Source: Acidobacteriota bacterium
Lineage (GTDB): Bacteria; Acidobacteriota; Terriglobia; Acidiferrales; UBA7541
Length of the DNA: 64,000 bases
NCBI GenBank assembly: GCA_003225295.1
Contig: QHYZ01000049.1
Span: forward strand, 62,001 to 126,000
Reading direction: 5' to 3'
In this document: positions 21,723 through 32,286 of the stretch, piece after piece
How positions within the stretch are numbered: position 1 is the first letter of the stretch
Layout: each line of letters starts with the position of its first letter
The notes under the pieces: generated by a model
The model's input: only the letters and a program-made list of their open reading frames with translations
Told to the model about the DNA's origin: nothing
The model's database searches: none
Position numbers and translations under genes: made by a program

Positions 21723-21869
21723 TTAGTAGTACTCGTGTTACTCGAACCTTAACCGCCGTGCTGTTTTTGTGGGGAAGTGATACGCAGCAAGGCAGTTAAG
21801 CTCGTTCAGATGTTGGTTGTACCGAGCTGCTGGACACTCCAGCTTGAGTTCCGCTTGGGGGGAGCACTG

Positions 21870-23885
21870 ATGGCTTCATTCGCCCGGATGGGAGAAGAGA
21901 TTCCCGTTGCACCGGTACCTGTGCCTTCACAGGAGCAGGATTGGGCGAAGCGTCTGGAAAAGACCATCGAGCGCGGTGCGCATCACCTTCTTTCCATTCA
22001 GGCAGAGGAAGGATACTGGCAGGGCGAGCTCGAGGCGGACACCACCCTGGAATCCGATTACATCTATTACCTGCACGTTTTGGGAAAGGCCGATCCGCAG
22101 CGCATTGCCAAGCTCGCAAATTATGTGCGCCGCCGGCAGCTCGCCGATGGCGGCTGGTCCATCTATCCCGGTGGGCCTTCCGAGCTCAACGCTACCTGCA
22201 AAGCTTATTTTGCCCTGAAGCTGGCGGGCTGCTCCACCGAAGCGCGGCATATGGTTGAAGCGCGCGAGACGGTCCATCGTCTCGGCGGCCTGGAGCACAC
22301 CAATTCCTATGTGCGGTTTTACCTCGCGCTGATCGGCGCCGTGGGATGGGAATTGGTTCCATCCATTCCGCCGGAGCTGATGCTCCTTCCGAATTGGTGC
22401 TATTTCAATATTTACGAAATGTCTTCGTGGACGCGCGGCATCGTGATTCCCATGGCCGTGCTGTCCTCGCTGCGGCCCGATTGGCGTTTGCCCGAGCGCG
22501 CGCGTGTCGATGAATTGTTCCAGGACCCCACACGAAAGACCGCGGCGTTTGACTGGAGCAAGCAACTTATCTCCTGGAAAAACGTTTTCCTGGCGCTCGA
22601 TCGCGGTCTAAAGCTTTACGAGAAATCGCCCTGGAAGCCGCTGCGCCAGCGCGCATTACGCGAAGCGAAGTCCTGGATGCTGAACCACATCGAGCGTACC
22701 GAAGGACTGGCCGCCATCTACCCGGCAATGATGAATTCGATTTTCGCGTTGATGGCCTTAGGACACGGCCCGGACGATCCGCTGACCTGGAGGGAAATCA
22801 AGGAGTTTTCGCGATTTGAAGTCGAAGAGGGCGACACCATCCGCATGCAGCCGTGCGTTTCGCCGGTCTGGGATACCTGCATCGCCATGGTCGCTCTGGA
22901 AGAAGCCGGCTTGCCGGCGGATCATGCTTCACTGGTGAAGGCGGCGGAATGGATGCTCTCGAAGCAAGTGCTCGGGCCGGGCGATTGGCAAGTGAAAAAC
23001 AAAGACGCCGAACCGGGCGGCTGGGCCTTCGAATTTCGCAACGATTTTTATCCGGACGTCGACGACACCGCGTTTGTGCTCATGGCGCTCCAGCGCGTGA
23101 AGTACCCCGATCCCCAGCGCATGGAAGGCGCCATACGCCGCGGAATTCAGTGGCTGCTCAGCATGCAGAACCGTGACGGTGGCTGGGGTGCGTTTGACCG
23201 TGACAACGACCAAAACTTCCTCTGCAACATTCCTTTTGCTGATCACAACGCGATGATCGATCCTTCCACCGCCGATGTCACCGCGCGCGTTGTTGAGTGC
23301 CTCGGCAGGTTTGGCTGGCCCGCGGAACATCCCGTCATTCAGCGCGCCGTGAAATTCCTGCGGAAGGATCAATGCGATGATGGTTCCTGGTTCGGCCGCT
23401 GGGGCGTCAACTACGTTTATGGAACCAGCGGCGTTTTGCGCGCCTTGGAAACCGTTTCGCTGACCGCGCGCGATTACTGCCAGCGCGCCGTGATGTGGCT
23501 TCGCACGGTACAGAAGGCCGACGGCAGCTTCGGTGAGTCACTGCGAAGCTATGAGATGCCGTCCACAAAAGGGCAGGGACCGAGCACGCCTTCGCAGACG
23601 GCCTGGGGTTTGATCGGGTTGCTGGCGGGTGCGGATCTCCACGAACCGGCCATCGTCAAAGCGGTTTCCTACCTTGTGCACCAGCAGAAGGAAGATGGCT
23701 CCTGGAGCGAGCCGGATTTCACCGGCACGGGTTTTCCGGGCGTGTTTTACCTGAAATACCACCTCTACCGGAATTCCTTTCCGGTCTACGCGCTGGCACG
23801 CTACTCCAACCAATCGCGCGGGGCGGATGAGTACCTGGCGCTGAAGTTCCAGCCTAGCCAATTCCGGCTGCGCAGCGGGTTTTAG
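21870..23885 (+). CDS. shc: squalene-hopene cyclase
   Basis: Cyclises squalene to hopene/hopanol in the membrane. From ATG 21870 (GGGGGGAG just upstream) the product is 671 residues, the normal size; the open frame extends 31 codons further without family similarity. The catalytic acid motif is DVDDTA (D396-A401). Several QW repeats are visible, e.g. DGGWGAF, DGSWFGRWG and EDGSWSE. It is the first gene of an operon that runs to hpnE with mostly overlapping genes. Confidence 0.98.
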   Translation: MASFARMGEEIPVAPVPVPSQEQDWAKRLEKTIERGAHHLLSIQAEEGYWQGELEADTTLESDYIYYLHVLGKADPQRIAKLANYVRRRQLADGGWSIYPGGPSELNATCKAYFALKLAGCSTEARHMVEARETVHRLGGLEHTNSYVRFYLALIGAVGWELVPSIPPELMLLPNWCYFNIYEMSSWTRGIVIPMAVLSSLRPDWRLPERARVDELFQDPTRKTAAFDWSKQLISWKNVFLALDRGLKLYEKSPWKPLRQRALREAKSWMLNHIERTEGLAAIYPAMMNSIFALMALGHGPDDPLTWREIKEFSRFEVEEGDTIRMQPCVSPVWDTCIAMVALEEAGLPADHASLVKAAEWMLSKQVLGPGDWQVKNKDAEPGGWAFEFRNDFYPDVDDTAFVLMALQRVKYPDPQRMEGAIRRGIQWLLSMQNRDGGWGAFDRDNDQNFLCNIPFADHNAMIDPSTADVTARVVECLGRFGWPAEHPVIQRAVKFLRKDQCDDGSWFGRWGVNYVYGTSGVLRALETVSLTARDYCQRAVMWLRTVQKADGSFGESLRSYEMPSTKGQGPSTPSQTAWGLIGLLAGADLHEPAIVKAVSYLVHQQKEDGSWSEPDFTGTGFPGVFYLKYHLYRNSFPVYALARYSNQSRGADEYLALKFQPSQFRLRSGF

Positions 23886-23890
23886 AGCGC

Positions 23891-24697
23891 ATGATGCGCT
23901 TTCCCCTGCGGCTTACTGTGGACCTCGCCCTGGCCCGGCTCGCGCAGACGTCCGGCGAGAATGCGGCAAGTGCTTCCGTACTTTTGCTCGCTCCCATGGA
24001 GCCAGCAAGTCCGTCCGGTCTCGATTCCAGTGCTCATCATCCCATGGCGCCAAGAGCTGGAACCGAATTACTGGCTCGTGTGCGGAATGCCCCCGCTCCC
24101 GTCGTGTGGATCGGGGGAAGCGAACCTCTTCTCCATCCGGAGATGGGACAGTTGACGCGCTGCATTGCCGGGATTGGCCGTGATGTTTTTCTGGAAACCG
24201 ACGGCGCTCTTCTTCAGCGGCGCATTCACGAATTCCGTCCCGTCTCGCGGTTGTTTCTCACCATCCAATGGAACGGGCTCGAACGCTCGCACGACGCTAG
24301 GGCGGGGCGGGCGGGCGCGTTCCAGGCGGCGCTAGAAGGAATGCGCGTTGCGAGGCTCTCCGGTTTCTTGATCTGCGTGCATGCGCGCGTTCACGCGGAG
24401 ACGGAACTGGGAGAGATGGCCGAGTCAATCCACTTTGCGCGCTCGCTCGATGTGGATGGCATTGTGATTTCGACCGCGAACCGGAGATCGAACTCCGCGA
24501 ATCCGGAAGCGGCGGACTTGCAGCAGAAAATCGTGGAAGCGCGAAAGCTGATCGGGAGCAAGTGGTGGGAATCCTTTTCGCGGCTTGTTGAGCCCTTAGT
24601 GAGCGGCCAACGGAACACCACGCCAGGTGCCGAAGCGGTCGGCGTCCGTCCCGAACGCGAATCCCACGCCAACCAAGAGAGCGTAAGGGTCGCATGA
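23891..24697 (+). CDS. HpnH-like protein lacking the radical-SAM cysteines
   Basis: Position between shc and hpnA is where HpnH, the radical SAM adenosylhopane synthase, is often found. The sequence matches that family in several places: the N-terminal MRFPLRLTVDLA, IGGSEPLLHPEM (the GGEP-like SAM-binding strand), VFLETDGALLQ and LDVDGIVIST. However, the CxxxCxxC motif that binds the [4Fe-4S] cluster is absent; where it belongs (residues about 30-55) the protein has a Pro/Ser-rich segment with no Cys. The C-terminal part of HpnH is also shortened (268 against about 330 residues). It is probably a catalytically dead or repurposed paralogue. It overlaps hpnA by four bases. Confidence 0.75.
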   Translation: MMRFPLRLTVDLALARLAQTSGENAASASVLLLAPMEPASPSGLDSSAHHPMAPRAGTELLARVRNAPAPVVWIGGSEPLLHPEMGQLTRCIAGIGRDVFLETDGALLQRRIHEFRPVSRLFLTIQWNGLERSHDARAGRAGAFQAALEGMRVARLSGFLICVHARVHAETELGEMAESIHFARSLDVDGIVISTANRRSNSANPEAADLQQKIVEARKLIGSKWWESFSRLVEPLVSGQRNTTPGAEAVGVRPERESHANQESVRVA

Positions 24698-25722
24698 CCA
24701 CGCTGGTTACCGGCGCGGCGGGCTTTGTTGGCAGCCACGTGACACGGCAATTGGTGGCTCGCGGTGACGAAGTGCGCGTGCTGCTCCGTGCGTCGAGCAC
24801 CAACCGCGCAATTGCGGATTTGTCGCTTGAATATGTGACCGGGGACTTGCGCGAACCTGCCTCGCTCGATCGCGCGATGAAGGGCGTCAAGCGCGTCTTT
24901 CACGTTGCGGCGGATTATCGATTGTGGGCTAGGAGTTCTCAGGAGATTTACGATTCGAACGTTGGCGGCACAAGAAACCTTCTGAGCGCGGCGAAGCGCG
25001 CTGGCGTCGAACAGTTGGTCTACACCAGCACGGTGGCAACCGTTGCCGTCGACCGGCCGCGGTATCCCAATGAATTCACCGACGCCAAGCTGGAAGAAAT
25101 GGTGGGCCACTACAAGCGCTCGAAGTGGATGGCGGAAAGGGAAGCGCTGGAAGCCGCGAAAAACGGATTGCCGGTCATTGTGGCCATGCCGACGACGCCG
25201 GTAGGGCCGGGCGACTGGAAGCCGACACCCACCGGAAAGATCATTCTGGATTTTTTGAATGGCAAGATGCCCGGCTATGTGGAGACTGGCTTGAATTTTG
25301 TTGGCGTGGAAGAATGCGCGGCAGGACACCTGCGGGTCGGCGAAAAAGGCAAAGTTGGCGAGCGCTACCTGCTCGGTGGTGAAAACCTCACGCTCAAGCA
25401 AATGCTGGACACCCTCGCGAAGATATCGGGTCTCGACGCGCCGCGGTTGAAAATTCCACATGGACTCGCGCTGGGTGTAGCCTATGCCAATACCGCGTTT
25501 GCGCGGCTGGTCGGGCGCGAGCCGAGCATTCCGGTCGAGGGCGTGAAGATCGCCCGGCACAAAATGTTTGTGGATTGCTCGCGCGCCAAGCGTGAACTTG
25601 GATTTCAAGCGGCACCGGTGGCTGCAGCGCTGGAACGCGCGGTGCGCTGGTACGAAGCGAACGGCTACATCGCCAAGAGCCGCGCCAAGCGCATGGCTCA
25701 CGCCGCCGTTAGGGTTTTGTAG
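24694..25722 (+). CDS. hpnA: hopanoid-associated NAD-dependent epimerase/dehydratase HpnA
   Basis: A 342-residue extended short-chain dehydrogenase. The N-terminal Rossmann motif is TGAAGFVGS (residues 6-14), and the catalytic YxxxK is in HYKRSK (near 138-143). HpnA-type proteins are found in hopanoid clusters and are presumed to modify the side-chain sugar, though the exact reaction is not settled. Its ATG overlaps the preceding stop (ATGA). The 97-base gap to hpnG after it is the largest in the front half of the operon. Confidence 0.92.
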   Translation: MTTLVTGAAGFVGSHVTRQLVARGDEVRVLLRASSTNRAIADLSLEYVTGDLREPASLDRAMKGVKRVFHVAADYRLWARSSQEIYDSNVGGTRNLLSAAKRAGVEQLVYTSTVATVAVDRPRYPNEFTDAKLEEMVGHYKRSKWMAEREALEAAKNGLPVIVAMPTTPVGPGDWKPTPTGKIILDFLNGKMPGYVETGLNFVGVEECAAGHLRVGEKGKVGERYLLGGENLTLKQMLDTLAKISGLDAPRLKIPHGLALGVAYANTAFARLVGREPSIPVEGVKIARHKMFVDCSRAKRELGFQAAPVAAALERAVRWYEANGYIAKSRAKRMAHAAVRVL

Positions 25723-25818: not shown

Positions 25819-26616
25819 ATGCGCATCCTGGTCACTTTCGCCGTCGCAGCCGAGTTCGCCCCTTGGCGCAAAAGGCACGATTTTTCGCTGGTTCAACTCG
25901 CCGATCTCAGGACCTATCAAGCCGAGATCACGGGGGCCAGCGTTGTGGTCCTGTTGACTGGTATGGGCGGCGCGCGCGCCGGATCCGCGACGCGCGGCAT
26001 CCAAACGGCTGCAACTGAGTCCGGGCGATTCTTCGAGGTATGCGTTTCGACTGGTTTGGCCGGGGGGCTGCAACCTGAGATCAGAGCCGGTGAAATTGTT
26101 GTAGCCAGCGAACTGCGAACTCGCGCCGTTTCCGCCGACCTTCCTAAGGGCGGAATTTCCTGCGACCGGGAGTTGATGGCTTTGGCAAAGAAGTGCGGGG
26201 CGCGAGGAGTAAGGGCCTTCTATGAGGAAGATCACATCGTGATCACTGCCGCGGAGAAATTAAGATTAAGCTCTTCGGCCGACGTGGTCGATATGGAAAG
26301 TTTCGAGGTGATCAGCGAGTGTCTTGTCTGGGGTACGCGTGGGGTGGCGGTACGCGCGATTAGCGACACTTCAGAAGACGATTTGCCACTCGATCTGAAT
26401 CTAGCAGTCACCAGGGCGGGCGACATCAGCTTGAAACGCATGCTCGGGCAAGTGTTGAGGCAGCCAAAGAGCGTTCCCGGGCTCCTGCGCTTCGGCAGGC
26501 AGAGCCACCAGGCGGCCGAGTCGCTGGGAGACTTTCTTGACAGTTTCATCCCCGAGTTGGCTGCTCGGAGTGAAGCATTCTCGTTGCACAAGAGAGAGGT
26601 TGCCCAGGCAGGATGA
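25819..26616 (+). CDS. hpnG: adenosylhopane nucleosidase HpnG (phosphorylase family)
   Basis: A 265-residue nucleoside-phosphorylase-fold protein. The hopanoid-linked member HpnG removes adenine from adenosylhopane. Family patterns are LLTGMGGARAG (about 53-63), STGLAGGLQPEIRAGEIV (about 78-95) and the DMESFEV substrate motif (near 158), with RAISDTSEDDLPLD after it. It overlaps the next dehydrogenase gene by four bases. Its presence implies a canonical HpnH activity somewhere in the genome. Confidence 0.88.
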   Translation: MRILVTFAVAAEFAPWRKRHDFSLVQLADLRTYQAEITGASVVVLLTGMGGARAGSATRGIQTAATESGRFFEVCVSTGLAGGLQPEIRAGEIVVASELRTRAVSADLPKGGISCDRELMALAKKCGARGVRAFYEEDHIVITAAEKLRLSSSADVVDMESFEVISECLVWGTRGVAVRAISDTSEDDLPLDLNLAVTRAGDISLKRMLGQVLRQPKSVPGLLRFGRQSHQAAESLGDFLDSFIPELAARSEAFSLHKREVAQAG

Positions 26617-27719
26617 GCAGGACTGAAACAACGCTGGAAGCCGTGAAGACACCAGCCCCCATCCCCAAAACGATGCGCGCCGGTGTCTACCGAGAAAAGG
26701 GAATCGTACGCGTCGAGGAGGTCCCCGTACCGCAAGTAGGCGATGGCGAAGTTCTCATCAAGGTTGCTACCTGTGGGGTCTGCGGCACCGACATCAAGAA
26801 GATTTTTCACGCTTACGTTCCGCCACCGCAAATCCTTGGACATGAATTGGCGGGCACGGTGGTTGCCGTTGGCCGTGGCGTGAAGAAATGGCGACTGGGC
26901 TGCCGGGTAATGAGTTTTCATCACATTCCCTGCGGGAAGTGTTTCTATTGCGAACGCCGTCTCTTCTCGCAGTGCAAGCAGTACAAGGCGACCGGTCTGA
27001 CCGGCGGATTCACGCCGAACGGCGGCGGCTTCGCGGAATACGTGAAAGCCATGCCCTGGGTAGCCGAACGGGGGATTGTGGCGCTCCCCGATGACGTCAG
27101 CTTTGAGGAAGCCACGTTTATCGAGCCGATCAATACGATTTTGAAGGCCGTGCAGAAAGCCCGCGTAACGGCGGGCGAGACCGTGCTAATCGCGGGTTGC
27201 GGCCCCATCGGCCTACAACTGCTAATGGTTGCTAACTTGGCACACGCCAAGCTCTACACCAGTGATCCCATGGCCGTGCGGCGCGCGAAAAGCCTAACGC
27301 TAGGAGCATTAGAGTCGTTTGACCCCAGTGATGGTAAGCTTGTGGAACACATGAAGGCCCGGACTGAGGGTCGAGGCGCCGATGCGGTTTTGGTTGCGGT
27401 AGCACACTCTGGAGTTGTGATCGATGCGTTGGCAGCGGCAAGACCTGGAGGACGCGTACTGTTGTTCGCCGCGAACGACCCGGTAACCAGGATCGAGTTT
27501 CCCGCTGCGGCAGTGGGGATCGACGAAAAAGAAATCCTGGGCAGCTATAGTGCGGCCGTGGACATCCAAGAAGAAGGGGCCGACCTGGTGCTGAATAAGA
27601 AACTGCCGGTCATGGATATTGTGACGCACCGTTTTCCGTTGGCTAGAATCCAACAAGGGTTGGATCTGGCCGCCAAGCCAACGGAGGAATCACTCAAGAT
27701 CTTGATCACACACGCATGA
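26613..27719 (+). CDS. zinc-dependent medium-chain alcohol dehydrogenase (first of pair)
   Basis: A 368-residue MDR-family oxidoreductase. The catalytic zinc site is in CGVCGTDIKK and GHELAGTV, the structural zinc site is the CGKCFYCERRLFSQC cysteine set, and the cofactor loop is IAGCGPIGLQ. Relatives are sorbitol, threonine and alcohol dehydrogenases. It is coupled by ATGA overlaps to hpnG before and to the second dehydrogenase after, so it belongs to the hopanoid operon. A role in reducing ribosylhopane to bacteriohopanetetrol, or in other side-chain chemistry, is inferred from context only. Confidence 0.9.
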   Translation: MSRTETTLEAVKTPAPIPKTMRAGVYREKGIVRVEEVPVPQVGDGEVLIKVATCGVCGTDIKKIFHAYVPPPQILGHELAGTVVAVGRGVKKWRLGCRVMSFHHIPCGKCFYCERRLFSQCKQYKATGLTGGFTPNGGGFAEYVKAMPWVAERGIVALPDDVSFEEATFIEPINTILKAVQKARVTAGETVLIAGCGPIGLQLLMVANLAHAKLYTSDPMAVRRAKSLTLGALESFDPSDGKLVEHMKARTEGRGADAVLVAVAHSGVVIDALAAARPGGRVLLFAANDPVTRIEFPAAAVGIDEKEILGSYSAAVDIQEEGADLVLNKKLPVMDIVTHRFPLARIQQGLDLAAKPTEESLKILITHA

Positions 27720-28831
27720 GCACGACGACGCCAAAGAAGCTGGAAGTAGGCGAAGAAGTGAAAGTTGCCGTAACACAAGTCACGGTGCCGTCGAAGATGA
27801 CCGCAGCCGTACTCTATGGCAGCGAAGATCTTCGCATAGAGAAGATCGATGTACCCGCACTGGCGGCTGACGAAGTCCTGGTGCGCGTCCGGCTGGCGCT
27901 TACCGACGGTACTGACCTCAAAGTCTGGAAGCGTGGTTATCACGCCAAAATGATTCGACCGCCGGCCGTCTTTGGCCACGAACTGGTTGGCGAAATTGTG
28001 GCCGTGGGGAAGCGCGTGGATCCGCGCTGGCGGATTGGCATGCGCGTCATCGCCGCAAACTCCGCACCGTGTTTGCGCTGCTATCACTGCCGCCGTGGCC
28101 AGGAAAATCTTTGCGACGACTTGTTGTTCAACAACGGCGCGTACGCGGACTACATGCGCATCCCCGGCCGCATCGTCGTGGAAAACATGCTGGAAGTGCC
28201 GCACTCGGTGGACGATCAGAGTGCAGCGCTGGCCGAACCCTTGGCCTGCGTGCTTCGCGGAATCCACGAGATGGAAGTGCGTACCGGAGATACCGCCGCG
28301 GTGATCGGTTGCGGTCCCGTGGGATTGAAGTTTGTCCGCATGCTTTCGCGACGCGGAGTTCGCGTCATCGCGCTGGCGCGGCGCGCGGCGCCGCTCGACA
28401 TTGCTAAGCGGCTGGGCGCGGTGGCGACCTTCAACGTCACCGAGACGGAAGATGTCGTGCCCGCGGTCAGAGCGCTTACCGAAGACCAGCTGGGACCCGA
28501 TTCCGTGGTCGAAGCGGCGGGCAATCCGGCCACCTGGCAGCAGGCCCTGGCGATGGTGCGGCGCGGTGGTGTCGTGAATTTCTTTAGCGGCCTGCCTTCG
28601 GGTACTCGTGTTGAAATTGACCCGGCGGCGATCCACTACTCGGAAATCAAACTGATCTCGCCCTTTCATCACACACCGCGGTTCTTTCGCGAGGCCCTGG
28701 AAGCCATCCGGCGCGGGGATATTTCGGCTCGCGATTTCGTCACCGAAGAAATCCGGCTGGCGGACCTGCCGCAGGCGTTTGCGCGCATGAAGTCGCGCAG
28801 CGGCGAGATCAAGTTGGCCGTGCGGCCGTAG
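27716..28831 (+). CDS. zinc-dependent medium-chain alcohol dehydrogenase (second of pair)
   Basis: A 371-residue MDR oxidoreductase, a divergent paralogue of the preceding gene. Features are FGHELVGEIV, the structural-zinc cysteines CLRCYHCRRGQENLC and the Rossmann loop VIGCGPVGLK. The position of the first catalytic Cys is occupied by LTDGTDLK (Thr/Asp, no Cys), so its catalytic zinc site differs from a classical alcohol dehydrogenase. It overlaps the first dehydrogenase by four bases, and the pair may form a heteromeric enzyme. Confidence 0.88.
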   Translation: MSTTTPKKLEVGEEVKVAVTQVTVPSKMTAAVLYGSEDLRIEKIDVPALAADEVLVRVRLALTDGTDLKVWKRGYHAKMIRPPAVFGHELVGEIVAVGKRVDPRWRIGMRVIAANSAPCLRCYHCRRGQENLCDDLLFNNGAYADYMRIPGRIVVENMLEVPHSVDDQSAALAEPLACVLRGIHEMEVRTGDTAAVIGCGPVGLKFVRMLSRRGVRVIALARRAAPLDIAKRLGAVATFNVTETEDVVPAVRALTEDQLGPDSVVEAAGNPATWQQALAMVRRGGVVNFFSGLPSGTRVEIDPAAIHYSEIKLISPFHHTPRFFREALEAIRRGDISARDFVTEEIRLADLPQAFARMKSRSGEIKLAVRP

Positions 28832-28955
28832 TTCGGGTGCAAACCAAACCCACCTGTCATTTGCTGTTCCCGCGTCCCGCATGGTTCCGCGGGATCGAGC
28901 GAGGCGCGCATTCTGCGCTCTGGACGGTTTTGCGGAGCGAGGAATCTCTCTTGTG

Positions 28956-30905
28956 ATGTTACTCCCCGGCGAAATCGACATTACCCGGCACGCACCAAAG
29001 CCCGGCTGCGCGCCCGAAGTGGCTCGGCGATACACGCGGTGGCTCGCAACGCATCACTACGAAAATTTCAACGTCGTATCCTGGCTTCTCCCCAAAGCGC
29101 TGCACCAGGATTTCTACAACGTCTACGCGTATTGCCGCTGGGCGGATGATCTCGGTGACGAAGTTCGCGACGCGGCGCGCGCTCTGGAACTGCTGCATTG
29201 GTGGGAGCGCGAGCTGGATGCATGTTACGAAGGGAAACCAGCGCATCCGGTTTTTGTGGCGCTCCACGAGACGATCGTCGCGAAAGATATTCCCAAGCAG
29301 CCCTTTGCCGATCTCCTGAAGGCTTTCCGTCAGGATCAGACCGTCACGCGCTATCCGAACTGGGATGCCGTGCTCGGCTATTGCGTGTATTCGGCAAGTC
29401 CGGTGGGACGACTGGTTTTGTATCTGTGCGGCTACCGCGACGAACAGCGCCAACGTTTGTCGGATGCCACCTGCACCGCGCTGCAACTAGCGAATTTCTG
29501 GCAAGATGTCGCACGGGACCTGGAAATCGGGCGGATTTATATTCCCCTCGATGCGGCCGCGGCACAGGGGCTATCCGAGAACGACATCGTTGAAAAGCGC
29601 TTCGATGAGCGCTACGTGCGCTTGATGAAGGATCTGATCGCGCGCACGCGAGCCCTCTTTGCCGAAGGCCATCTGCTGGTAAAAATGGTGGATGGCCGCC
29701 TCAGCGTGGACTTAGAGATGTTCAGCCGGGGCGGTTTGGCCGTGCTCGATGCCATCGAAGCGATAGGATATGATACGCTTCACCGCCGCCCGGCGGTCAG
29801 CAAAGTAAAGCAGGCCCGCCTCCTGGGCGGCGCCCTGGTAAGGCAGCTCATAAACAAAAACTCAAGCGCGGATGTGAAGGTACTGACATCCATAGCTGTA
29901 GGGACAGAGCATGCCGTACCCCCAGCGAGCACCATGATTGCGGAATCGTACGAAGCCTGCTACGCCATTGCCCGGGCAGCTCGCAGCAATTTTTATCACG
30001 CCTTCTTCCTCCTGCCAAAACCCAAGCGGGATGGGCTGGCTGCCCTGTATGCCTTCATGCGCCTCGTGGATGATGTTGCCGACGAAGGCGCGGACCTCGC
30101 GGCCAAGCAACGCGGACTAGCGAAATGGCGCGCCGCTCTCGATCAAGCCATCACCGGGCAGGAGCAGCTCTTCGATGGCAACGCTGCCATGAGCCCCCCT
30201 TCTGCCTTGGACGGCGCTTCCGAAGTATTGCCTGCGCTGGTGGACACCCTGCAGCGCTACAAAATGCCCGCACGCTACCTTCACGACCTGATCAGCGGAG
30301 CCGAAATGGACTTAACATTGCAGGCGTATCCGACCTTCGACCGCCTTCGGGAATACTGCTATCGCGTAGCCGGCACGGTTGGACTTACCTGCACGCATGT
30401 GTTCGGCTTCCGCGACGCGCGTGCCCTGGACCTGGCGGAAAAGCTGGGCCTCACTTTTCAATTGACGAACATCATTCGCGACGTGCATGAGGATTACAAA
30501 CTCGGCCGTATCTATCTCCCGGAGGAAGATCTGCAGCGGTATGGAGTCTCAGCGGAAGATTTTGGTCGCGCCGAAGCGACTCTCGGCGTTCGCGAATTGC
30601 TCCGCTTCGAAGCCGAACGCGCCTGGCAACTTTATGAAGAGGGTTCTGCATTGCTTGGTCTCATCGATGCCGATAGCCGCGGCGCATTGTGGCTGCTCGT
30701 CCATACTTACAGCGCGCTGCTCAGTCGCATCGAGGCGGTGGACTTTGCCGTCTTCGGTGAGCGCGTGCGGCTTCCCAAGGCGGAGAAAATGATGTTCATC
30801 GCCAAGGCGCGCTTCGGCCGACACACGGAAGAGAATATCCTTGAAAAGCGTAATCGTGATCGGCGGCGGGCTGGCGGGACTGGCAGCCGGCGTCGCGTTG
30901 GCTGA
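28956..30905 (+). CDS. fused HpnC-HpnD squalene/phytoene synthase-like protein
   Basis: Two complete trans-prenyltransferase-like domains in one 649-residue frame. The first (residues about 20-290) has HYENFNVVSWLLPK and the aspartate motifs DDLGD (64-68) and DVARD (184-188), typical of HpnC. The second (about 330-625) has DDVAD (372-376) and DVHED (509-513), typical of HpnD. HpnD makes presqualene diphosphate from farnesyl diphosphate, and HpnC converts it to hydroxysqualene. The linker (about 295-327) holds no stop. ATG 28956 is preferred over ATG 28881; GAGCGAGGA precedes it. The last 22 codons overlap hpnE in another frame. Confidence 0.9.
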   Translation: MLLPGEIDITRHAPKPGCAPEVARRYTRWLATHHYENFNVVSWLLPKALHQDFYNVYAYCRWADDLGDEVRDAARALELLHWWERELDACYEGKPAHPVFVALHETIVAKDIPKQPFADLLKAFRQDQTVTRYPNWDAVLGYCVYSASPVGRLVLYLCGYRDEQRQRLSDATCTALQLANFWQDVARDLEIGRIYIPLDAAAAQGLSENDIVEKRFDERYVRLMKDLIARTRALFAEGHLLVKMVDGRLSVDLEMFSRGGLAVLDAIEAIGYDTLHRRPAVSKVKQARLLGGALVRQLINKNSSADVKVLTSIAVGTEHAVPPASTMIAESYEACYAIARAARSNFYHAFFLLPKPKRDGLAALYAFMRLVDDVADEGADLAAKQRGLAKWRAALDQAITGQEQLFDGNAAMSPPSALDGASEVLPALVDTLQRYKMPARYLHDLISGAEMDLTLQAYPTFDRLREYCYRVAGTVGLTCTHVFGFRDARALDLAEKLGLTFQLTNIIRDVHEDYKLGRIYLPEEDLQRYGVSAEDFGRAEATLGVRELLRFEAERAWQLYEEGSALLGLIDADSRGALWLLVHTYSALLSRIEAVDFAVFGERVRLPKAEKMMFIAKARFGRHTEENILEKRNRDRRRAGGTGSRRRVG

Positions 30906-32286
30906 ATCCGGCTGGCGCGTACGTTTGTTTGAACAGCGTCCCTTCCTCGGCGGCCGGGCAACCTCCTACGTGTTGCCCGACGGCCAGCATGTGGACAATT
31001 GCCAGCATGTGACTCTGGGATGCTGCACCAATCTGGAAGATTTCTACGGGCGCATCGGTGCCGCGGGCAAAATAACCTTCTTCGATCGGCTCCTCTTTCT
31101 CGATCCACAAGGACGCAGAGGAGAGATGCAAGCCGGGCGGTTGCCGGCGCCATTTCATCTGACCTGGTCGTTTGCGGCCTTTGCGCCGCTGACGCTGCCG
31201 GACAAGCTATCCATCGCGCGCGCCATGCTCGATATTCTGCGGACCAAGGGTAAGCCATCGGATCTGCAGGAGAATGGTGGGATCTCCATGCTGGAGTGGC
31301 TCCGCCGCCGCCGCCAGACGAAAGGCGCCATCGAGCGATTCTGGCGCGTGGTCCTCGTGAGCGCTCTCGATGAGGAACTTGCTCGCACCGACGCACGCTT
31401 CGGCATCGACGTTTTCTGGAAAGCCTTTCTTTCGAACAGCACCGGCTATCGCATGGGAGTCCCCGCCGTTCCGCTCGCAAATTTGTACGATGGATGCAAG
31501 TCGGAGATCGAGCGCCGCGGCGGGGAGGTGGTTTTGCGCACTCCCGTACGCGGCCTGAAGATCGAAAATGGTGAGTTCGCCGGGCTTCGCTTTGACGAAG
31601 GGCGCGAAGAAACGGCCGATGCCTACGTATTCGCCGTGCCCCACACCGCGCTGGGGGAACTGCTCCCACAAAGCATCAAGCAGAGTGATGCGGCGCTCGC
31701 AAATCTGGACAAAATCAATGTCGCGCCAATCACCGGCGTGCATCTGTGGTTTGACCGGCAGGTGATGACGGACCCGTTTTTGACGCTTTTGGACACCACC
31801 ACGCAGTGGATCTTCAATAAGAGCGCTCTCTACGCCGATTCGAATGGAAAAGAGAAGGGCTCCCCCGAGGGACAGTACTTGCAATTGGTTATCAGCGCGT
31901 CTTACGATTTGCTGCAAAAACCGCGTCAGGAGATCATCGACCTCTGTTTAGGAGAACTCCGGGAGGCTCTCCCCGCTGTCCGTGACGCCGAATTGGTGAA
32001 GGCCACGGTCATCAAAGAAGCCGCGGCGACGTTTTCCCCGGAGCCGGGAGTGCACCGCTGGCGCCCCAGACAGCAGACCTCCGTGCCGCGTTTGTTCCTG
32101 GCCGGGGATTGGACGGACACCGGTTGGCCCGCGACAATGGAAGGTGCCGTGCGCAGCGGTTACTTGGCCGCCGAAGCCCTGCTTCGCTCCGCTGGAACGC
32201 CTCGAAGATTGCTGCAACCGGATCTCGAGCCGGATGGATTCATCGCCATGTGGCTAGGGAGGCAAAGCGCCGCGACAGGTAGCTGA
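30841..32286 (+). CDS. hpnE: hydroxysqualene dehydroxylase HpnE
   Basis: A 481-residue FAD enzyme that reduces hydroxysqualene to squalene, completing the HpnC/D/E route. The N-terminal FAD motif is VIGGGLAGLAAGVAL (residues 5-19), followed by FEQRPFLGGRA, and the C-terminal FAD contact is LFLAGDWTDTGWPATMEGA. The start is TTG 30841, placing the gene 65 bases inside the fused hpnCD frame, with a ribosome-binding site within that gene. Its product supplies Shc at the front of the same operon. Confidence 0.94.
   Translation: MKSVIVIGGGLAGLAAGVALAESGWRVRLFEQRPFLGGRATSYVLPDGQHVDNCQHVTLGCCTNLEDFYGRIGAAGKITFFDRLLFLDPQGRRGEMQAGRLPAPFHLTWSFAAFAPLTLPDKLSIARAMLDILRTKGKPSDLQENGGISMLEWLRRRRQTKGAIERFWRVVLVSALDEELARTDARFGIDVFWKAFLSNSTGYRMGVPAVPLANLYDGCKSEIERRGGEVVLRTPVRGLKIENGEFAGLRFDEGREETADAYVFAVPHTALGELLPQSIKQSDAALANLDKINVAPITGVHLWFDRQVMTDPFLTLLDTTTQWIFNKSALYADSNGKEKGSPEGQYLQLVISASYDLLQKPRQEIIDLCLGELREALPAVRDAELVKATVIKEAAATFSPEPGVHRWRPRQQTSVPRLFLAGDWTDTGWPATMEGAVRSGYLAAEALLRSAGTPRRLLQPDLEPDGFIAMWLGRQSAATGS

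Follow-up and report, generated by a model that had tools for sequence, protein, structure and literature searches.

A cysteine-less HpnH paralogue, probably a pseudoenzyme, in the hopanoid operon of an acidobacterial genus

Introduction

Why would a hopanoid operon keep, at the position of hpnH, a gene that lacks the cysteines of a radical SAM enzyme, and what could its product still do? The question arises in a 64,000-nucleotide window (the whole stretch of DNA analysed here) of an Acidobacteriota genome, where a first-pass annotation had described an HpnH-like gene of the hopanoid operon without the cysteine motif. The open reading frame and the peptides quoted from it are as described, and CX3CX2C is absent. 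We call this Cys-less HpnH paralogue X. No report of a Cys-less HpnH was found in the open-licence PMC literature, and the parts of PMC5462960 available to us carry no remark on such a gene.

Results

A Cys-less gene between shc and hpnA

X lies in an operon of hopanoid genes, all on the same strand:

21867-23885, + strand: shc, squalene-hopene cyclase, the upstream neighbour (TIGR01507, 782 bits)
23891-24697, + strand: X, the Cys-less HpnH paralogue, 267-268 aa (open reading frame, profile matches, relatives, tree)
23990-24055, + strand: residues 33-54 of X, the place of CX3CX2C in HpnH; residues 41-46 and 48-50 of the predicted model have pLDDT below 50 (alignment, model)
24107-24109, + strand: codon of W72; HpnH S77 is replaced by Trp in 23/23 aligned Cys-less rows (alignment)
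24194-24196, + strand: codon of E101, aligned with HpnH Cys106; Glu in 19/23 Cys-less rows (alignment)
24209-24241, + strand: L106-P116 (LLQRRIHEFRP), the conservation peak of the Cys-less family; L107, R110, H112, E113, F114 and P116 are invariant in 23/23 (alignment)
24380-24382, + strand: codon of H163; HpnH N168 is replaced by His in 20/23 Cys-less rows (alignment)
24694-25722, + strand: hpnA, downstream; its start overlaps the stop of X in ATGA (TIGR03466, 445 bits)
25819-26616, + strand: HpnG-like phosphorylase, under the family cut-off (109 of 187.1 bits)
26613-28831, + strand: two genes of the zinc-type alcohol dehydrogenase kind, within the operon (open reading frames, profiles)
28881-32286, + strand: fused hpnCD, then hpnE (hpnC/hpnD 523/435 bits, hpnE 460 bits)

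The products of shc, hpnA, the hpnC/hpnD fusion (28881-30905, 523 and 435 bits) and hpnE all score above their family cut-offs, and the HpnG-like product scores below. PMC5462960, in its available parts, likewise reports an hpnCD fusion for subdivision 2, for which it also describes a fragmented ispA-shc-hpnH cluster, and notes that hpnH and shc cluster in subdivision 1. X starts 5 nt past the shc stop; at its other end, its TGA and the ATG of hpnA overlap (ATGA, 24694-24697). The conserved EEGVRIA-like C-terminal end of X (24676-24697) is encoded where hpnA has its start and likely ribosome-binding site, and its conservation may thus act at the level of DNA instead of protein. The interval 23600-25000 holds no repeats of note.

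The HpnG-like gene is a separate observation. It is the single match in each of 36/36 genomes of the genus and always falls below the cut-off (82-128 of 187.1 bits), and the window copy is 35.5-45.4% identical to those of seven relatives, against about 80-83% for hpnA. A parallel replacement of HpnG is unsupported, with one HpnG-like match per genome in 36/36, intact-hpnH genomes included.

Counted from its first ATG, X encodes 268 aa; a start at the second ATG yields 267 aa and the N-terminus MRFPLRL. Its best NCBIfam profile is TIGR03470 (HpnH), at 89.2 bits (E 2.4e-25) and below the 225.05-bit cut-off for HpnH itself; it narrowly passes Pfam Radical_SAM PF04055, with 30.1 bits against a gathering threshold of 29.5. 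X has only two cysteines, C89 and C161, neither of them invariant across the Cys-less family, and so lacks the cluster-binding cysteines by which radical SAM activity is recognized. The Pro/Ser-rich segment said to replace the cysteine region holds for this species; in many others the stretch is shorter instead.

Four states of the gene in one genus

A search for X covered 61 genomes, 57 of which gave a match at 1e-3, and a profile search covered 36 genomes of its genus. Three genus genomes carry an intact CX3CX2C (G007, G009, G010), four have a full-length gene with a broken motif (G019, G020, G034, G035; hereafter intermediates), 25, this genome included, have a Cys-less and shorter gene, three have deleted the gene (G005, G021, G033), and G015, a 63% complete genome whose contig ends within shc, was left unclassed. 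The intermediates retain one or two of the three cluster cysteines, never the third, together with four C-terminal cysteines. Cys-less genes encode 232-289 aa, compared with 333-385 aa for intact operon-linked genes. In the deleted state, shc and hpnA are separated by 11, 12 or 31 nt, stop included, and in G005 both neighbours are themselves in pieces.

The Cys-less frame is unbroken in 23 of the 25 genes; near the N-terminus, the frame is broken in G011 and interrupted by a run of N in G029. These two also limit a check on whether a frameshift correction would restore the motif: the former cysteine region is readable in 22 of the 24 other Cys-less genomes, and CX3CX2C is absent from all 22, as it is from X.

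Synteny is complete in the derived states, with the gene between shc and hpnA in 25/25 Cys-less and 4/4 intermediate genomes. Among the Cys-less genomes, shc ends 8-63 nt upstream of the frame read and hpnA starts at -4 to +23 nt; the 4-nt ATGA overlap recurs in 20/25 of them and in 4/4 intermediates. Around the 12 intact operon-linked genes read, shc lies directly upstream in 10 (not found in G053 and G060) and hpnA downstream in 11 (not found in G051).

No Cys-less homologue was recognized among 25 genomes of other genera scored with the Cys-less profile. These were picked from a class-wide search of 250 genomes, 203 of which had an HpnH match at 1e-18 among the matches listed; 24/25 match the Cys-less profile at 1e-10, the best at 168 bits against at least 239 for Cys-less genes, a distinction judged by score. 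A scan of genome contigs returned 27 loci: 23 from Acidobacteria metagenome-assembled genomes (MAGs), 13 of them titled gp2 (subdivision 2) and every one a gene of the genus described above, and four distant matches that are partial and 30-42% identical.

A second HpnH of another type

The suggestion to look for a canonical hpnH elsewhere in the genome proved fruitful: a complete second HpnH is encoded at G000:C140:87942-88892, scoring 546 bits against TIGR03470, above the cut-off, with C38, C42, C45 and C106 in place. No shc, hpnA, hpnG, hpnCD or hpnE was found in the 19 kb around it; among six of the larger open reading frames nearby, the scan recognized a radical SAM protein resembling lipoyl synthase and an AMP-ligase/acyltransferase.

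Across the 61 genomes, HpnH falls into two types by score, with intact operon-linked proteins (type 1) at 413-451 bits in 12 genomes, proteins like the second HpnH (type 2) at 498-558 bits in 36, and no genome in common. The second HpnH is thus present in 0/12 intact operon-linked genomes. Within the genus it occurs (at least 498 bits) in 32/36 genomes, namely 24/25 Cys-less, 4/4 intermediate and 3/3 deleted genomes and G015, and in 0/3 intact ones. On the tree, type-2 gain and cysteine loss amount to roughly one event, so we read the pattern as history, not as a statistical association.

The one Cys-less genome in which a complete second HpnH was not found is G016 (Cys-less gene at G016:C12 32738-33514), which is 86% complete; if the absence is real, this species could not make adenosylhopane by the known route. 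The type-2 genome G002 has a 3.3-kb contig (G002:C59; L099 1534-2733) with an intact, Cys-bearing, type-1-like gene that contains an internal insert (378 bits summed) and is followed by an shc fragment about 50% identical; it is possibly a second hopanoid locus or a binning stray. Two type-1-like HpnH scores also occur in one genome (G155:C141 and C113) of another genus of the family.

Exchange of types extends beyond the genus. In genus g26 of the same family, G122, G151, G202, G247 and G263 differ from G084, G163 and G258 in HpnH type by profile score, and each genome has type-1 scores only or type-2 scores only, among the matches listed. Because species of g26 differ in this way, exchange of the two HpnH types seems recurrent in Acidobacteria.

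Descent from HpnH and history of loss

A tree of 53 HpnH and X rows, which leaves out Cys-less G011 and G029, unites the 23 Cys-less rows in a single clade (100/100) inside type 1, with the four intermediates as its sister group (100/98). This nesting within operon-linked HpnH, on branches supported at 100/98 and 99/99, indicates descent from HpnH, and type 2 stands apart (100/100).

The single Cys-less clade is unsupported by the other two trees. In a tree of shc and hpnA (39 rows) the intermediates branch from within the Cys-less group (96/94), and in an rpoB tree (30 rows) deleted G005 and then Cys-less G004 branch before the intermediates (91/85); the rpoB tree also requires two deletions (G005, G033). 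Long-branch effects could distort the X tree. The simplest history has the cluster lost once, with shortening once or several times.

Residues lost, kept and newly fixed

Residues were compared over columns invariant (at least 90%) in 25 complete HpnH rows, up to position 236 of X, in one MAFFT alignment on which the counts depend. Of 93 such columns, the HpnH residue is kept in 14, another residue has replaced it at 80% or more in seven, 45 vary, and a gap is the commonest state in 27. The Cys-less family has lost the three cluster cysteines, Cys106, H130/D132, T169, S198-P199 and the C-terminal cysteines. We take H130/D132, N168/T169 and S198-P199 of HpnH to be SAM contacts. Most rows keep the GxEP motif that follows strand 2 (G75 20/23, E77 18/23, P78 21/23).

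The switched columns are S77 to W72 and G294 to S229 (both 23/23), N168 to H163 (20/23), C106 to E101 and G191 to D186 (both 19/23) and two conservative replacements. W72 and S229 are absent from the complete HpnH rows. Cys106 of the genome's own complete HpnH aligns with E101, and X therefore lacks the residue that, in the available parts of PMC12583986 (citing Sato 2021), affects 22R/22S stereochemistry and on change to Ala yields both 22R and 22S products. The switched residues may have been inherited from one ancestor.

R110, H112, E113 and F114 are invariant in 23/23 rows despite a mean pairwise identity of 40% (effective number of sequences 14.3 at 60% identity). Intact operon-linked HpnH, which here samples more genera, has H112, E113 and F114 in only 7, 9 and 9 of 12.

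Weak purifying selection on an open frame

Pairwise codon fits were made for the 24 pairs closest in shc. For X, omega was 0.142-0.448 in 23/24 pairs, the G001-G003 fit having run away in dS, and the likelihood ratio against omega of 1 was 8 in the closest pair and at least 32 in the others; values are rough, because pairs share genomes and the optimiser was run short. In the same pairs omega was 0.021-0.060 for shc (24 pairs), 0.025-0.068 for hpnA (23) and 0.023-0.049 for the second HpnH (15). X is thus under purifying selection in most species, and since its omega exceeds that of the neighbouring genes roughly 3- to 15-fold, the constraint is weak.

In a neutral simulation without indels, 230-codon frames remained open in 0.5-4.5% of cases at 0.3-0.6 substitutions per site and in about 24% at 0.1, against the 23/25 unbroken frames observed. 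Relatives, tree, omega and simulation together back the earlier view that this Cys-less gene derives from HpnH and is maintained. X is nevertheless dispensable, though probably useful, because three species have deleted it and otherwise kept the operon.

A predicted barrel core

The predicted model of X has pLDDT 83.0 and pTM 0.81, and that of a 242-aa member from G018 has 85.9 and 0.82, each computed from a 22-row alignment. Both models have the same predicted six-strand barrel core; in X, residues 41-46, 48-50 and 241-267 fall below pLDDT 50. Superposed on SkfB, the X model gives Z 14.9 and an rmsd of 4.3 over 215 residues, consistent with a partial barrel of the radical SAM type. A sequence search found no solved HpnH structure. 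The nearest solved folds of predicted X are radical SAM enzymes (Z up to 14.9), which disposes of the concern that the fold match arose by chance.

Discussion

X carries both marks of a pseudoenzyme: it is an enzyme homologue without the catalytic residues, and it is kept by selection, with weak constraint and deletion in 3/36 genomes. We consider it probable that X is a selected, non-radical HpnH paralogue, a pseudoenzyme that arose after a second HpnH took over the reaction. Under this explanation, X would be the former HpnH of the shc-hpnA operon, in a lineage that acquired its second HpnH, which is of a different type, is encoded elsewhere and presumably now performs the adenosylhopane reaction. 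X would then have lost its [4Fe-4S] site, its C-terminal cysteine region and most presumed SAM contacts, losses read at the level of sequence, and yet stayed open, foldable as predicted and under purifying selection in most species. Such a protein would be incapable of radical chemistry. It would act in hopanoid synthesis, most likely by binding a pathway protein or a hopanoid or nucleoside intermediate through a remodelled barrel mouth (W72, E101, H163) and the conserved L107-P116 segment, and lying between shc and hpnA would keep its level in step with theirs. The first-pass annotation had also suggested a SAM-binding regulator, which is unlikely because most positions that we assume to contact SAM are lost. 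Its other two suggestions, a structural subunit and a new reaction, may each fit the sequence, and in either case three species do without the gene.

The main rival to a selected pseudoenzyme is slow decay, in which X is a redundant HpnH under fading selection, on its way to the deletion seen in three species and retained for some time owing to its position between two genes that are translated together. The raised omega, the long branches of X in its tree, the graded series from intact through broken motif and Cys-less to deleted, and the frame break in G011 all fit this reading, and we hold it to be possible, if unlikely. However, frames survive far above the neutral rate, W72 and S229 are fixed in 23/23 Cys-less rows and absent from complete HpnH, and H112, E113 and F114 are more constant in the Cys-less rows than in intact operon-linked HpnH. 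Additionally, coupling alone does not require X, because the operon exists without it in three species. Error in assembly or reading frame could in principle hide a normal HpnH, an idea we reject as scarcely credible: nothing in its favour was found for the window, and 22 other genomes, from several sequencing projects, contradict it with the same Cys-less gene and a readable region.

Two further readings keep a chemical role for X. It is rather improbable that the lost iron-sulphur site was rebuilt into a site for catalysis or ligand binding that needs no cluster (Trp72, Glu101, His163); X would then be a hopanoid-pathway protein of a new kind, which emerged from a radical SAM enzyme once a second HpnH had taken over its reaction. 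A full enzyme of this sort, acting at a putatively rebuilt barrel mouth on a hopanoid intermediate without iron or SAM, has a slim chance of being right. It would account for W, E and H at the HpnH S77, Cys106 and N168 positions in most rows, and the available parts of PMC5462960 describe the enzyme from ribosylhopane to BHT as still unknown; but E101 and H163 (Glu in 19/23, His in 20/23) are less constant than expected of catalytic residues, and species without X keep the remaining operon. That X is still a metalloprotein or SAM binder, an active radical enzyme whose cluster is held by partner cysteines or other ligands, is very improbable. The mostly kept GxEP motif speaks for it, whereas the three-cysteine loop is shortened or disordered, the family has lost the C-terminal cysteines as well as Cys106, H130, D132, T169 and S198-P199, and both C89 and C161 vary among its members.

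Whatever its role, one genus of soil Acidobacteria offers at one syntenic site a series from intact radical SAM enzyme through partial motif loss and a conserved Cys-less protein to deletion. This makes it possible to test which functions remain open to a radical SAM barrel that has no cluster, and whether non-catalytic helpers take part in hopanoid synthesis. Finding a gene next to shc in the place of hpnH is also not proof of an active HpnH, which matters for predicting lipid biomarkers from MAGs.

Comparison with known systems

X shares with HpnH (adenosylhopane synthase, TIGR03470) its descent, a predicted radical SAM barrel core and its place in the operon; unlike HpnH, it lacks CX3CX2C, Cys106 and the C-terminal cysteine region, reaches 89 of 225 bits and is shorter. 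The second HpnH of the same genome (G000:C140) is homologous to X but belongs to a separate clade, has the complete motif and lies outside the operon. TIGR04347, a radical SAM family that NCBIfam names pseudo-SAM/SPASM, matches X weakly (33.7 bits against a cut-off of 525), and the HpnH, NirJ and AhbC profiles match better; the kinship seen is that of the superfamily. By sequence, the solved structure closest to the Cys-less profile (E 9.7e-6) is BlsE, the cytosylglucuronate decarboxylase (PDB 7vob), which is also the top Foldseek match; it is described as a radical SAM enzyme of blasticidin S synthesis and is distant from X.
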